A DNA stretch of 64,000 nt from Salinibacter grassmerensis. Its GTDB lineage: Bacteria; Bacteroidota; Rhodothermia; Rhodothermales; Salinibacteraceae. The stretch covers positions 372,001 to 436,000 of the forward strand of contig NZ_CAMTTF010000003.1 of NCBI RefSeq assembly GCF_947077765.1, written 5' to 3'. The notes under the pieces were generated by a model. The model was not told where the DNA came from. It did not search any database and saw only the letters and a list, made by a program, of their open reading frames with translations. The position numbers were made by a program, and so were the translations under genes. Below, one piece after another: positions 26,358 to 32,163 of the stretch; the first letter of the stretch is position 1, and every line of letters begins with the position of its first letter.

Positions 26358-29270
26358 ATGGCCATTGATCTCTCGTCCGCCAATACGTTCGACGAGCGTC
26401 ACCTCGGCCCCACGGACGCCGACGTGAACGCCATGCTCGACGCCCTCGGGGCCGAGTCGCTCGATGCCCTCGTCGACGCGGCCATTCCGGACTCCATCCG
26501 CACCGACGACCCACTCGACCTGCCGCCCGCCCTCACCGAGCAGCAGGTGCTCGACGCAGCCCAGGACGCTGGCGAAAAGAACGACACATGGCGCTCGTTC
26601 ATCGGCATGGGCTACCGTGGCACCCACACGCCGCCGGTGATCCAGCGCAACATTCTGGAAAACCCGGCCTGGTACACCCAGTACACGCCCTACCAGGCCG
26701 AGATTGCCCAGGGCCGCCTGCAGGCGCTCCTCAACTTTCAGGACATGACGATCGACCTGACGGGCATGGAGATCGCCAATGCGTCGCTGCTCGACGAGGC
26801 GACGGCCGCGGCGGAGGCGATGATGATGCTGAACCGGGTCGACCGCCGCAGCGACGCCTCCACGTTTTACGTGTCTGAGGACTGCCACCCACAGACCATC
26901 GAGGTGGTGAAGGGCCGCGCCGAGCCGATCGGGATCGACGTCATCGTAGAGGCCCCCGAGAACTTCGTCTTCGGCGAGGACACGTTCGGCTGCCTCCTGC
27001 AATACCCCACGACCGACGGCGCAATTCACGACCACCGTGACGTGGCCGACCGGGCCCACGAGGCGGACGCCTACGTGGCCGTGGCCGCCGATCTGCTGAG
27101 CCTTACGCTCCTGGAGGCCCCGGGCGAATGGGGGGCCGACGCGGTCGTCGGCTCTACACAGCGCTTCGGGGTGCCAATGGGCTACGGCGGGCCGCACGCC
27201 GCCTTCTTTGCAACCCGCGAACGCTTTCAGCGCCAGGTGCCCGGCCGCATGATCGGCGTCACGAAGGATGCCGACGGCGAAATGGCACTCCGCATGGCAC
27301 TTCAGACGCGCGAGCAGCACATCCGGCGGGGGCGCGCAACCTCCAACATCTGTACCTCCCAGGTGCTGCTGGCCGTGATGGCCTCAATGTACGCCGTCTA
27401 CCACGGCCCCGAGGGGCTCCGCGAGATTGCAACGCGGGTGCACGACCTCACGACGACGCTGGCCGAAGGGCTGGAGCGAACGGGCCACACGGTCCGCCAC
27501 GACGCGTACTTCGACACGTTGCGCGTGGACCTGGCCGAGACGACGCAGGCCCAGGTCCGCGAGCGGGCCGAGGCGCACGAGATCAACCTCCGGTACTACG
27601 ACGACGGATCGGTGGGCATCGCGCTCGACCAGACCGTCGGCGCCGAGGACCTCGACGCGCTCTTCACCGTCTTCGGTGCCACCAACGGCCAGAAGCTGTA
27701 CGCCGAGGACCTGGCCGCCGAACTCGACAGCGGCTACGACGGCCCCATGCGGCGGCAGACTTCGTACCTCGAGCATCCGGTCTTCAACTCGTACCACTCC
27801 GAGGGCGAGCTGACGCGCTACATGAAGTCCCTGGCGGACAAGGACCTGTCGCTCATCCACAGTATGATCCCGCTGGGGTCGTGCACCATGAAGCTGAATC
27901 CGACCGCCGCCCTTCAGCCAATTTCAAACCCGCAGTTTGCGGGCCTGCACCCCTTTGCGCCCCAAGAACAGGCGGAGGGATACGAGCAGGTGATCGACGA
28001 GCTCAGCGGCTACCTCACGGAGATCACGGGCTTCGACGACATCTCCTTCCAGCCTAATTCCGGGGCTTCTGGCGAGTACACCGGCCTCCTGGTCATTCAG
28101 GCCTACCACGAGGCGCGGGGCGACGAGCAGCGGGACGTGTGCCTCGTCCCCGAATCCGCCCACGGGACCAACCCTGCCAGCGCCAACATGGCCGGGATGG
28201 AGGTCATCACCATCGACTGCGACGAGAACGGAGACGTCGACCTGGACGACCTCCGCGAGCAGGCCGAGGCGAACAGCGAACGCCTCGCCGCCGCGATGAT
28301 CACGTACCCCTCCACACACGGCGTCTTCGAGGAGCACGTCGAAGAAATTTGTGACATCATCCACGAGCACGGCGGGCAGGTGTACCTTGACGGGGCCAAC
28401 GTGAACGCGCAGGTCGGCCTTTGCCGCCCCCGCGAGTACGGCGTGGACGTGTGCCACCTTAACCTGCACAAGACGTTCAGCATTCCGCACGGCGGCGGCG
28501 GACCGGGAGTGGGGCCCGTTTGCACGGCCGAACACCTGAGCCCCTTCCTCCCCGGTCACCCGGTGGTGGAGACGGGCGGCGACCAGAATATTCCCGCGAT
28601 TGCCGCGGCCCCGCACGGCAGTGCCCTGATTCTGCTCATCTCCTGGGCCTACATCAAGCTGCTGGGCCCCGAGGGCCTCACGAAGTCGTCGAAGACTGCC
28701 CTCCTGAATGCCAACTACCTGGCCGACCAGATGTCGAACCACTACGACATCGTCTTCCGGGGGCCCAATGACCGTGTGGCCCATGAGTTTATCCTCGACC
28801 TCCGCCCGTTCCGCTCTGAGCTCGACATCAACGAGCAGGACGTGGCGAAGCGGCTCATGGACTACGGCTTCCACGCCCCCACGATGAGCTGGCCGGTGGT
28901 GGGAACTCTCATGGTGGAGCCCACGGAGAGCGAGTCGAAGGCGGAGCTCGACCGCCTGGTCGACGCGTTCGCCGCCATTCGCAGCGAGATCGAGGCCGTC
29001 GAGAACGGAACGCTGGAGGCGGAGGAGAGCACGCTCAAGCAGGCCCCCCACACCGCCGAGATGGTCACCGCCGACGAGTGGGATCACGCGTACGGCCGCG
29101 AAACGGCGGCCTATCCGGTGGAGGCGGTGCGCGAGCACAAGTTCTGGCCCACCGTGCGGCGTGTAAACGACGCCTACGGCGATCGGAACCTCTACTGCGC
29201 CTGCCCTCCGACCGACGCGTACGACGCGGAGGAAGAGGAGGAGCTGAAGTCGGCCCTCCAAACCGCGTAG
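26358..29270 (+). CDS. gcvP: Glycine dehydrogenase (decarboxylating), P protein of the glycine cleavage system
   Basis: 970 residues, the fused single-chain P protein. It decarboxylates glycine with PLP and passes the aminomethyl group to the lipoyl arm of GcvH. The N-terminal half has GTHTPPVIQRNILENPAWYTQYTPYQ-type sequence from about residue 94; the catalytic half has the Schiff-base lysine in LNLHKTFSIPHGGGGPG (Lys705). GSCTMKLNPTAAL and ESAHGTNPASANMAG are further signatures. Other gcv genes are not in this window, so the system is split on the chromosome. No tandem glycine riboswitch is seen in the 148 bp upstream. An intrinsic terminator follows the stop. Confidence 0.97.
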   Translation: MAIDLSSANTFDERHLGPTDADVNAMLDALGAESLDALVDAAIPDSIRTDDPLDLPPALTEQQVLDAAQDAGEKNDTWRSFIGMGYRGTHTPPVIQRNILENPAWYTQYTPYQAEIAQGRLQALLNFQDMTIDLTGMEIANASLLDEATAAAEAMMMLNRVDRRSDASTFYVSEDCHPQTIEVVKGRAEPIGIDVIVEAPENFVFGEDTFGCLLQYPTTDGAIHDHRDVADRAHEADAYVAVAADLLSLTLLEAPGEWGADAVVGSTQRFGVPMGYGGPHAAFFATRERFQRQVPGRMIGVTKDADGEMALRMALQTREQHIRRGRATSNICTSQVLLAVMASMYAVYHGPEGLREIATRVHDLTTTLAEGLERTGHTVRHDAYFDTLRVDLAETTQAQVRERAEAHEINLRYYDDGSVGIALDQTVGAEDLDALFTVFGATNGQKLYAEDLAAELDSGYDGPMRRQTSYLEHPVFNSYHSEGELTRYMKSLADKDLSLIHSMIPLGSCTMKLNPTAALQPISNPQFAGLHPFAPQEQAEGYEQVIDELSGYLTEITGFDDISFQPNSGASGEYTGLLVIQAYHEARGDEQRDVCLVPESAHGTNPASANMAGMEVITIDCDENGDVDLDDLREQAEANSERLAAAMITYPSTHGVFEEHVEEICDIIHEHGGQVYLDGANVNAQVGLCRPREYGVDVCHLNLHKTFSIPHGGGGPGVGPVCTAEHLSPFLPGHPVVETGGDQNIPAIAAAPHGSALILLISWAYIKLLGPEGLTKSSKTALLNANYLADQMSNHYDIVFRGPNDRVAHEFILDLRPFRSELDINEQDVAKRLMDYGFHAPTMSWPVVGTLMVEPTESESKAELDRLVDAFAAIRSEIEAVENGTLEAEESTLKQAPHTAEMVTADEWDHAYGRETAAYPVEAVREHKFWPTVRRVNDAYGDRNLYCACPPTDAYDAEEEEELKSALQTA

Positions 29271-29338: not shown

Positions 29339-29367
29339 GGGTCGCGAGGCACGCCTCGCGGCCCTTT
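29339..29367 (+). terminator. Intrinsic terminator of gcvP
   Basis: A 12-bp stem, GGGTCGCGAGGC with GCCTCGCGGCCC (one G-U pair), with a two-base loop that in practice opens to four, followed by TTTCGC. It lies about 70 bp past the gcvP stop and separates it from the macro-domain gene. Confidence 0.65.
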
Positions 29368-29412
29368 CGCTGTGGCGCACCCATTGTGCACCCATTACGG
29401 TGAAGATCGGCC

Positions 29413-30480
29413 ATGGTCGAGATTGTACAGGGGGATTTGTTCGAGGCAGACGCGGCGGCACTCGTGAACCCGGTCCACTGCGCCGGCCTCATGAAACGCG
29501 GGCTGTGTCGCCAGTTCAAGACTCGGTTTCCCGACAACGTTGAGCAGTACAAGGCCGCCTGCGACGCCGGGGCCCTGACGCCGGGCGATGTGCTCGTCCA
29601 CGATCGCGGGGGGCTCTTCGGCGACGTCCAGCATCCCCGATACGTCTTGAACGTGGCCACGAAAGACCACTGGCGCGACGCCTCGTCCGCCACGCACATC
29701 AAGTCGGGGATGGCGGCCCTCGTCGATGAGGTGGCCGCCCACGACATTGCGTCGATCGCCGTGCCCGCGCTGGGGTGCGGCGGGGGCGGGCTCGACTGGC
29801 CCACGGTGCGCCCGCTGCTGACCGCTCCACTCAAGTCGCTCGTCGGCGTCCGGGCGCTCGTCTACGCCCCTCGGTCGGCGGACGCACGGAGCGGCTCCGA
29901 CGCAGACGACCGCCCCGCCATGACCCGGGGACGGGCCCTCCTCCTCTCCGTCCTCGACGCCTACGCCAAACCGGGCGACACCGTCAGCCCGCACGCGGCG
30001 CACAATCTCGCCTTTCTGTTGCAGGAAGCGGGCGAGGACCTGCACCTCACGTTCGAGCCGGGCAGGTACGGACTCCGCGCCGCGGGGCTCACGGCCGTGC
30101 TGCGTCGGATCGAGGAGGACTTTATCGCGGGGTACGACCCGTCGCACCAGGACTCCCCGTTTCGCCTCCGTCAGGCAGCAGTCGGTGTGGCCAAAGATGC
30201 TCTTTCGGACTACCCAGGTGCCAATGATCGTCTGGGCCGGGTGCGAACCCTCATCGAAGACTACGACGCGCCCGACGGGCTCGAATTGCTGGCCACGGTG
30301 GGCTGGATCACACGGCACGATGCGCAGGCCCGGCGCCGGCCCGAGGCGGTCGTGCGGGCCATGCAGGACTGGAGCCGTCGCAAGGCGGAGCGCTTCACGC
30401 CGGAGCAGATTACGGCGGCCTGGCAGCGGCTCCGCCAACACGAATGGTTCAGCACAGGGCAGCCCACGGATCCCGAGTAA
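29413..30480 (+). CDS. DarG-like macro-domain protein (DNA ADP-ribosyl glycohydrolase antitoxin family) without DarT
   Basis: 355 residues. Residues 1-150 are a macro domain of the DarG type: GDLFEADAAALVNPV, the lysine of VATKDHW (Lys84, matching the catalytic Lys of Thermus DarG as I remember it), and the ADP-ribose loop GCGGGGLDW (121-129). Residues about 190-350 match the DarG C-terminal antitoxin part: HNLAFLLQEAGEDLHLTF, GRYGLRAAGL, IEDYDAPDGLELLATVGWI and FTPEQITAAWQRLRQHEWF. DarG reverses DNA ADP-ribosylation by DarT. Here two substrate-loop elements differ from the usual NTVN..GKG: they read NPVH (Asn to His22) and KRG (28-30). No darT lies next to it: gcvP precedes and a K+ channel gene converges from the other side. 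Confidence 0.82.
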   Translation: MVEIVQGDLFEADAAALVNPVHCAGLMKRGLCRQFKTRFPDNVEQYKAACDAGALTPGDVLVHDRGGLFGDVQHPRYVLNVATKDHWRDASSATHIKSGMAALVDEVAAHDIASIAVPALGCGGGGLDWPTVRPLLTAPLKSLVGVRALVYAPRSADARSGSDADDRPAMTRGRALLLSVLDAYAKPGDTVSPHAAHNLAFLLQEAGEDLHLTFEPGRYGLRAAGLTAVLRRIEEDFIAGYDPSHQDSPFRLRQAAVGVAKDALSDYPGANDRLGRVRTLIEDYDAPDGLELLATVGWITRHDAQARRRPEAVVRAMQDWSRRKAERFTPEQITAAWQRLRQHEWFSTGQPTDPE

Positions 30481-30510: not shown

Positions 30511-32163
30511 CTACGTCGACCGCCCGTCCTCAAGCCGTGCCCGAAAGTGCTGGATTCCGTCTTCGGTTCCGGCAACGATCACCTCGTCGTCCGTCTCGAA
30601 GGTGAAGAGGGCCTCATCAGGATCGGTGAGAAAATCTCCCTCTCGGTACACGGCAAGCACCGTGTAGTTGGTCTGTGCATCCGGATCAACGTTCCTAAGC
30701 GTTTCGCCGACCAATGGAGAGGCGGGGAGGCGGACCACGTTGAGCTGACGGTCCCGGGATAGATGGCCTTCATCTTCAAGTACCGTGGCGGCCAGCATCC
30801 GTCCGCAGACCGTCGGCAGGGCCTGCACAAAGTCTGCACCGGCGCGGCGGAGGTTCTGGACAGCCGTTTCGTCGTGGGCCCGGACCAGAATTTGCAGGTC
30901 CGGATTCAGATCGCGCGCAATGAGTGTCGCAAATGTGGCGACGGTATCATCGTCTACGGCAATAATGAAGGCCGACGCACCTTCGATTCCGCAGGCCTGA
31001 AGTGCGTCGGGGTCTCGGACGTCCCCGACCACATCCACTCTCTCTCCGTCCCTGAGGTCCAGTACAGTTACATCAGCATGGACCGCCCGGAGAGATTCCC
31101 AGGCGGCCTGTCCCGAGTCGCCATGCCCGGCGAGAATAATGGACTGTGATGTAAAGGCCCGCACGTACGGGGCCATCTCGTCGCGAAGGGCGTCCAGCTG
31201 GTCTGGAGTGCCGGCGAGGAACAGGCGCGTCCCCGCCTCGAGGGGGGCGGCAGCGTCGACGGCCGTCTCGAACGTGCCGTCGAGCCAGGCTCCAACCACT
31301 CGTACCCCGAACCGCTCCGAAAGCTGGAGGTCACGGAGCGAATGGTTTTGGGACGGGCCGTGCCGACTCACGATGAGTTCCGCAAAGTCGACTTCAGGCT
31401 CCACCGTTGCTTGCTTTTCGACGTTGGCCGCCGCGGCCACAGGAACCTGCGCGGCGAGGCTCCGCCCGAGCAGTTGCCGGGGCGACAGCGCCACGTCCGC
31501 CCCCGCCGCCCGATGGTATCGGGTCGCCGAGGCATCCTCGGCGAGCGTGATGATACGGCGTTCTGGACTGGCCTCACGGGCCGCGAGCACGATACTGGCA
31601 TTTTCATCGTCGGCGACGTCGGCCACCAGGGCTTTCGCCGCCCCGACGGAGGCTCGCTCCAGGACGGCAGTCGACGTTGGGTCCCCCTCCATGACTTCGT
31701 AGTTCTGCTCGTGGAGCGACGCGGCCTGCTCCGTATTGGGTTCAATGAGCACGTACTCCTGCCCCCGCCCAATCATTTCGTCGATAAAGACCTCCACCCG
31801 GGGTGTGTAGCCGCACACGATGACGTGACCGGATCGACCCGGGAGCCCTTTTGGGGCCGTGGGCCGGAGGGCCTCGCGGAGCCAGGGCACCACGAACACG
31901 TCAACGGCACTGAGAATGAATCCGATGCCCGCGAGTTGGATGACGACCACAAGCAGATTCATCTGGGGACTGGTCCAGGGCGCGTCCTCGCCGTATCCGG
32001 TCGTCGTGAACGTCTGCACCACCACCTCCAGCGCCTGGTACCACGGCCGCGGCCGTCCCTCCCACACGCTCATGCCCAGGCTGTACGCCCCCGTTAGTCC
32101 CACGGTTGCGGCTACGAGCACCAGAAGGTAGTAGGCCGTGCGGCGGGTCAAGGACGTCATCAC
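30511..32163 (-). CDS. Potassium channel with two RCK (TrkA-N/TrkA-C) regulatory units
   Basis: 550 residues. One helix (about 10-30), a pore loop with selectivity filter TTTGYGED (about 52-59) and a second helix (about 68-90) make a two-helix channel. Two cytoplasmic TrkA-N units follow: HVIVCGYTPRVEVFIDE (about 113) and SIILAGHGDSGQAAWES (about 342), each with a TrkA-C-like part (VSRHGPSQNHSLRDLQLSERFGV; LNVVRLPASPLVGETL). It should gate K+ flow across the inner membrane in response to a nucleotide or ion. Salt-in halophiles keep molar K+ inside, which makes such channels central; similar architectures are common in haloarchaea. The filter has Glu after TTGYG where many channels have Asp. 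It converges with the DarG-like gene. Confidence 0.88.
   Translation of the reverse strand: MMTSLTRRTAYYLLVLVAATVGLTGAYSLGMSVWEGRPRPWYQALEVVVQTFTTTGYGEDAPWTSPQMNLLVVVIQLAGIGFILSAVDVFVVPWLREALRPTAPKGLPGRSGHVIVCGYTPRVEVFIDEMIGRGQEYVLIEPNTEQAASLHEQNYEVMEGDPTSTAVLERASVGAAKALVADVADDENASIVLAAREASPERRIITLAEDASATRYHRAAGADVALSPRQLLGRSLAAQVPVAAAANVEKQATVEPEVDFAELIVSRHGPSQNHSLRDLQLSERFGVRVVGAWLDGTFETAVDAAAPLEAGTRLFLAGTPDQLDALRDEMAPYVRAFTSQSIILAGHGDSGQAAWESLRAVHADVTVLDLRDGERVDVVGDVRDPDALQACGIEGASAFIIAVDDDTVATFATLIARDLNPDLQILVRAHDETAVQNLRRAGADFVQALPTVCGRMLAATVLEDEGHLSRDRQLNVVRLPASPLVGETLRNVDPDAQTNYTVLAVYREGDFLTDPDEALFTFETDDEVIVAGTEDGIQHFRARLEDGRST

Follow-up and report, generated by a model that had tools for sequence, protein, structure and literature searches.

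A DarG antitoxin homologue conserved without DarT in Salinibacter: a candidate domesticated ADP-ribosyl hydrolase

The solo darG gene, its protein and its neighbours

The window, a stretch of 64,000 nucleotides from Salinibacter grassmerensis, carries on its forward strand a gene (29413..30480, stop included) encoding a 355-residue protein whose reading frame begins at DarG Met1 and which is intact in six Salinibacter species. The gene had originally been predicted to encode a full-length DarG, and profile matching agrees: the NCBIfam DarG equivalog NF048014 was matched over all of its positions (1–338 of 338) with 300 bits against a cut-off of 250 (E 2.3e-89), and the PADLOC DarG match (1e-93) covers 1–343. 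The N-terminal macrodomain (29413..29880, +; residues 1–156) is of the ALC1/TARG1/DarG class, matches Pfam Macro at 8.8e-15 and shares 41–42% identity with the structurally determined macrodomains of Thermus aquaticus and Mycobacterium tuberculosis DarG. The C-terminal domain (CTD; 29920..30447, +; residues 170–345) has the fold of the DarT-binding domain and was matched by phmmer to the M. tuberculosis DarG CTD (7yk3_B, 8e-12).

An AlphaFold2 model of the protein (five sequences; mean pLDDT 76.5, pTM 0.54) superimposed well on known DarG structures. Its macrodomain aligned with T. aquaticus DarG (5m31) with a VIA Z of 23.6 and an rmsd of 2.0 over 149 residues, and its CTD aligned with 7yk3_B with a VIA Z of 17.8 and an rmsd of 2.7 over 172 residues. 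Loss of the CTD fold in a predicted structure had been named in advance as evidence against the assignment; the fold is present. The low-confidence stretches of the model (residues 85–90, 124–126 and 232–246) include pocket-adjacent loops, and we therefore make no claim at atomic level.

The neighbours are housekeeping-type genes. Upstream lies gcvP, encoding glycine dehydrogenase (26358..29270, +), separated from darG by a 142-bp gap; downstream, a convergent gene of the TrkA_N/TrkA_C potassium-channel type (30511..32163, −) ends 30 bp beyond darG on the opposite strand. Both flank darG in all six solo-bearing species. Between gcvP and darG, at 29340–29370 of the window, is a terminator-like hairpin, GGTCGCGAGGC-AC-GCCTCGCGGCC followed by CTTTCG, and a similar one occurs in several of the six species. 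This hairpin suggests that darG may have its own promoter in the 40–50 bases left after it.

DarT, the defining toxin of the system, is absent from directly upstream of darG, where gcvP stands instead, which confirms the predicted lack of an adjoining DarT. No DarT homologue was found anywhere in the window. The Pfam DarT model, which detects DarT in many other genomes, gave no match in the window genome (99.7% complete) at E ≤ 1, and an 8-row DarT alignment, searched without a positive control, gave none at E ≤ 10. Using the Pfam model, DarT was undetected in all six solo-bearing genomes, four of which are at least 99% complete. The whole-genome search called for by the original prediction thus returned no DarT, and an unlinked DarT in the window genome is rejected at the sensitivity of these searches. 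The suggestion that the protein acts with such a partner is disfavoured by the result from the six genomes. A DarT remnant upstream was likewise rejected, as only chance matches to DarT were found in the six solo loci and the window. The statement that no DarT-sized frame exists needs qualification: no frame matches DarT, but long antisense open reading frames do overlap darG; none is DarT-like, so a toxin hidden on the antisense strand is also rejected. The window genome contains a single DarG. By family the protein is a DarG; as a system the locus is not DarTG, because the defining toxin is missing.

Altered residues and selection in the two domains

Seven residues are invariant in all members of a reference set of 40 non-redundant DarT-paired DarGs: T20, N22, G28, A32, P82, K198 and P221. 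All seven are changed in all six solos, five in the macrodomain (T20P, N22H, G28K, A32C and P82A) and two in the CTD (K198N and P221L), whereas all seven are kept in the five other orphan full-length DarGs (L002, L071, L078, L079 and L093). Three of the changes, T20P, N22H and G28K, fall in the ADP-ribose pocket segment NPVHCAGLMKRGL (29467..29505, +; residues 19–31), for which the canonical form is NTVNCVGVMGKGI. The original prediction had pointed to His22 and to Lys28-Arg29-Gly30 in two pocket segments. Both segments are indeed changed and differ from every DarT-paired DarG examined; the real change in the second is G28K, because Arg29 keeps the charge of the canonical Lys29 or Arg29, and the alterations extend further, to T20, A32, P82, K198 and P221.

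Other parts of the active site are unchanged. Lys84, in the motif TKDHW (29662..29664, +), was correctly recognised from the outset; it aligns with the catalytic Lys80 of T. aquaticus DarG and is a lysine throughout the DarT-paired DarGs and in each of the six solos. Thr83, Trp87 and the glycines of the ligand-binding loop PALGCGGGGLDW (29764..29799, +; residues 118–129) are also kept; in this loop, assigned by alignment and from the T. aquaticus contacts, Asn120 of the T. aquaticus protein is replaced by Gly. The substitution at position 22 bears most directly on activity. It is His in six of six solos and Asn in 40 of 40 DarT-paired DarGs, and the literature describes conservation of Asn22 across DarG and almost all active macrodomains (PMC5179494, PMC9411070). 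Asn22 does not enter into how NCBIfam defines the family, but it belongs to the functioning enzyme. Among T. aquaticus DarG mutants, K80A has no activity, N22A is the next most damaged, and K29E and G119E show impairment (PMC5179494); SCO6735 likewise depends on the corresponding Asn27, and N27S nearly abolishes its activity (PMC9411070). Because N22A and N27S are so damaging, the solo protein may have kept ADP-ribose binding and lost hydrolysis. Halophilic composition was considered as a cause of the changes and rejected: the DarT-paired Salinibacter DarG L062 keeps T20, N22, G28, K198 and P221.

In the CTD, residue 198 (30004..30006, +) is Lys in 40 of 40 DarT-paired DarGs and Asn in all solos, and residues 220–222 (30070..30078, +) read Gly-Leu-Arg where DarT-paired DarGs have Gly-Pro-Tyr/Phe. 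Pro221 is found in 40 and Tyr222 in 38 of the 40, and both are replaced, by Leu and Arg, in all six solos. The C-terminal antitoxin motifs, predicted to be recognisable, are therefore only partly intact (K198 and P221 changed, GPY to GLR), although the fold is retained. The CTD of DarTG systems is described as an acidic mimic of single-stranded DNA that binds DarT. The net charge of the solo CTDs is −1 to +4; that of DarT-paired DarGs averages −2.4 (range −9 to +6), and it is −14 in the DarT-paired Salinibacter DarG L062. The organism is salt-loving and the proteins neighbouring the solo DarG are strongly acidic, and the near-neutral CTD beside them is notable. Since the solo values lie inside the paired range, loss of DarT binding is something that we infer from them.

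Selection has maintained the gene. The six solo darG genes are intact at 355–358 codons over a dS of up to 0.87, with dN/dS of 0.18–0.32 for the whole gene, 0.09–0.21 for the macrodomain and 0.22–0.44 for the CTD; the neighbours gave 0.07–0.10 (gcvP) and 0.08–0.22 (channel gene) across the same species. Both domains are under purifying selection, which is weaker on the CTD. The ratio of CTD to macrodomain dN has a median of 2.2 in the solos versus 1.3 (range 0.2–4.5) in other DarG pairs, a tendency rather than a sharp difference.

Distribution and descent of the solo clade

The order gcvP–darG–channel gene is common to six Salinibacter species, represented by the window and by loci L033 (S. 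altiplanensis), L034, L036, L057 and L058, whose proteins are 68–85% identical to that of the window. Not every member of the genus has the gene: two near-complete genomes (L059 and L060) carry gcvP and the channel gene and lack darG, and in L059 other genes occupy the gap. One Salinibacter species (G009) has a genuine DarTG pair adjoining a methylase-type gene; its DarG shows only 30% identity. A typical DarTG pair in a Salinibacter genome (L062:5434-7174, −) adjoins a large DNA-methylase-like gene, and its surroundings are likely a defence island.

A 2020 review placed DarG strictly within a two-gene toxin–antitoxin operon (PMC7050489). In a sample of 392 genomes from the phylum, DarG was above cut-off in 36, and 26 of these also had DarT; the ten without it comprise four Salinibacter and six others. 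Five of those six were readable, and in four of the five the orphan DarG groups closely with DarT-paired copies, so DarT loss there looks recent. One orphan full-length DarG (L002:1498-2550), which keeps all canonical residues, adjoins small antitoxin-like and toxin-like genes and is close to the DarT-paired copies of its own genus; it looks like recent DarT loss. In viral and phage collections (viral_contigs loci L095–L174; phage loci L175 and L176), DarT lies directly upstream of full-length DarG in 28 of 28 cases (26 viral contigs and 2 phage records) and of macrodomain-only DarG-like genes in 0 of 54; these macrodomain-only phage forms are candidates for counter-defence against DarT. From these surveys, a full-length DarG kept without DarT across species is an exception.

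The solos form a single clade in both the macrodomain tree (support 100/99) and the CTD tree (100/100), on long stems of 0.51 and 1.55 changes per column, respectively. The check proposed at the outset, whether solo members group together with the His22/KRG change, thus came out positive. Their nearest relatives are macrodomain-only Salinibacteraceae proteins, L065 (100/96) and then L069 (92/79). The former (L065:3823-4356, −), from another genus of the family, adjoins obgE and has His22 and an Ile in place of the catalytic Lys. A fusion joining a phage macrodomain-only protein to a DarG CTD was considered, as Pro20, Leu31 and PAL are common to phage forms and the solo macrodomain; it is unsupported, the tree placing the solo macrodomain with the Salinibacteraceae proteins (92/79). 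A second, MacroD-like macrodomain gene is present in all other Salinibacteraceae genomes of 90% completeness or more and undetected in the window genome, either truly lost or lying in an assembly gap. The solo DarG is the only recognised macrodomain of the window genome, which does not extend to a general rule, since the relatives carry the second one.

Proposed domestication, its rivals and known systems

A toxin-less gene held at the same locus in six species, with otherwise-invariant residues altered, probably has a cellular job of its own. We judge it narrowly probable that the solo DarG is a domesticated former antitoxin, now a stand-alone, Lys-dependent protein of the ADP-ribosyl hydrolase type, probably with a shifted substrate. 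The DarT partner would have been lost long ago, leaving a vertically inherited chromosomal gene of Salinibacter. The macrodomain would bind ADP-ribose and, by means of Lys84, take an ADP-ribosyl group off a substrate that differs from, or extends beyond, the thymidine of single-stranded DNA marked by DarT. The CTD, no longer acidic, would no longer cap DarT and might make another contact, for example with nucleic acid or a protein partner. The loss of invariant pocket and CTD residues and of CTD acidity tilts the sequence evidence towards a changed role over direct DarT capture. The fuller proposal, that the lineage has left toxin–antitoxin life altogether and been domesticated as an enzyme or reader of ADP-ribose, its substrate new and its CTD turned to another use, is plausible and advanced more tentatively. 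Counting against the hydrolase are the sister protein L065, which has His22 and has lost the Lys, the two near-complete genomes without the gene, and the solo CTD charge, which falls within the full DarT-paired range (−9 to +6).

The main rival to domestication is a stand-alone guard that still strips ADP-ribose from thymidine in DNA, protecting the cell against DarT arriving from plasmids, phages or neighbours. The retained Lys, Trp87 and glycine loop fit this, as does the occurrence of DarTG in the genus, at the G009 locus beside the methylase-type gene. Precedents exist as well: the stand-alone macrodomain SCO6735, whose site is more divergent, undoes the marks left by DarT and rescues E. 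coli (PMC9411070), and in T. aquaticus DarG the macrodomain is enough by itself to neutralise DarT (PMC5179494). A guard should, however, favour the canonical residues, which the five other orphans keep and the solos do not; Asn22, second in importance only to Lys80 in T. aquaticus DarG, is His, and T20, G28 and P82 are changed too. We consider a guard unlikely, while taking it seriously.

A non-catalytic reader, which would sense ADP-ribose or ADP-ribosylated nucleic acid and relay the signal through the CTD, is improbable. N22H at a position needed for turnover, the additional loss of the Lys in the His22-bearing sister L065 and the near-neutral CTD all agree with it, but Lys84 is strictly kept in six of six species. 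That the protein serves as antitoxin to an unlinked or unrecognised toxin, such as a DarT that has diverged beyond the reach of the models or an enzyme of another kind, is highly improbable: although both antitoxin-type domains are kept under selection, neither the Pfam model (E ≤ 1) nor the 8-row alignment (E ≤ 10, without a positive control) found a DarT, genes for metabolism or transport flank it in all six species, and viral and phage full-length DarGs have DarT directly upstream in 28 of 28 loci. We give hardly any credence to a decaying relic of a DarTG locus, for the loss of seven invariant residues and the greater rise of dN in the CTD (median ratio 2.2 vs 1.3) are outweighed by frames that stay intact at 355–358 codons across the six species, where dS reaches 0.87, by a dN/dS far under 1 in each domain and by a Lys84 that is never lost.

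Our literature search found no paper on a DarT-less DarG and none on a Salinibacter macrodomain. That several species keep a DarG under selection while lacking its toxin offers a natural experiment in antitoxin domestication, in which evolution separates the hydrolase from the toxin-binding function. The case suggests that extreme halophiles may have uses for ADP-ribosylation, whether of DNA, RNA or protein, that go further than defence against phages. For annotation it serves as a warning, since both the NCBIfam DarG model and PADLOC would label the gene as the antitoxin of a DarTG system although no such system was found. If the lineage has indeed left toxin–antitoxin life, it would be a new functional branch of ALC1-like macrodomains.

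Compared with known systems, the solo protein shares with the DarG of DarTG (DarTG2) from T. aquaticus and M. tuberculosis the two-domain layout, the folds, the catalytic Lys, Trp87 and the glycine loop; it differs in lacking DarT, in the seven residue changes, in its near-neutral CTD and in its metabolic neighbourhood with conserved synteny. The other orphan DarGs (L002, L071, L078, L079 and L093) are likewise full length with no DarT in locus or genome, and differ in keeping all canonical residues. Phage and metagenomic macrodomain-only DarG-like proteins (54 of L115–L174) also have no DarT beside them, and many share Pro20, Leu31 and the PALGCG loop with the solos; unlike the solos, they have no CTD and keep Asn22. 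Human TARG1 (C6orf130) resembles the solo protein in its ALC1-like macrodomain (Z 16.8 to the model), its catalytic Lys84 and its independence of a toxin, and differs in lacking the DarG CTD and in sharing only 22% identity. SCO6735 of Streptomyces coelicolor, a stand-alone ALC1-like protein that cleaves thymidine-ADP-ribose, is also a chromosomal macrodomain without DarT, and the solo DarG is likewise a probable de-ADP-ribosylase. SCO6735 is a single macrodomain and is not known to carry a DarG CTD. At the position of the Lys it has Gln, and where the solo protein has His22 it retains Asn (N27) (PMC9411070). What sets the solo DarG apart from stand-alone hydrolases of the TARG1 and SCO6735 type is a CTD that is present and under purifying selection.
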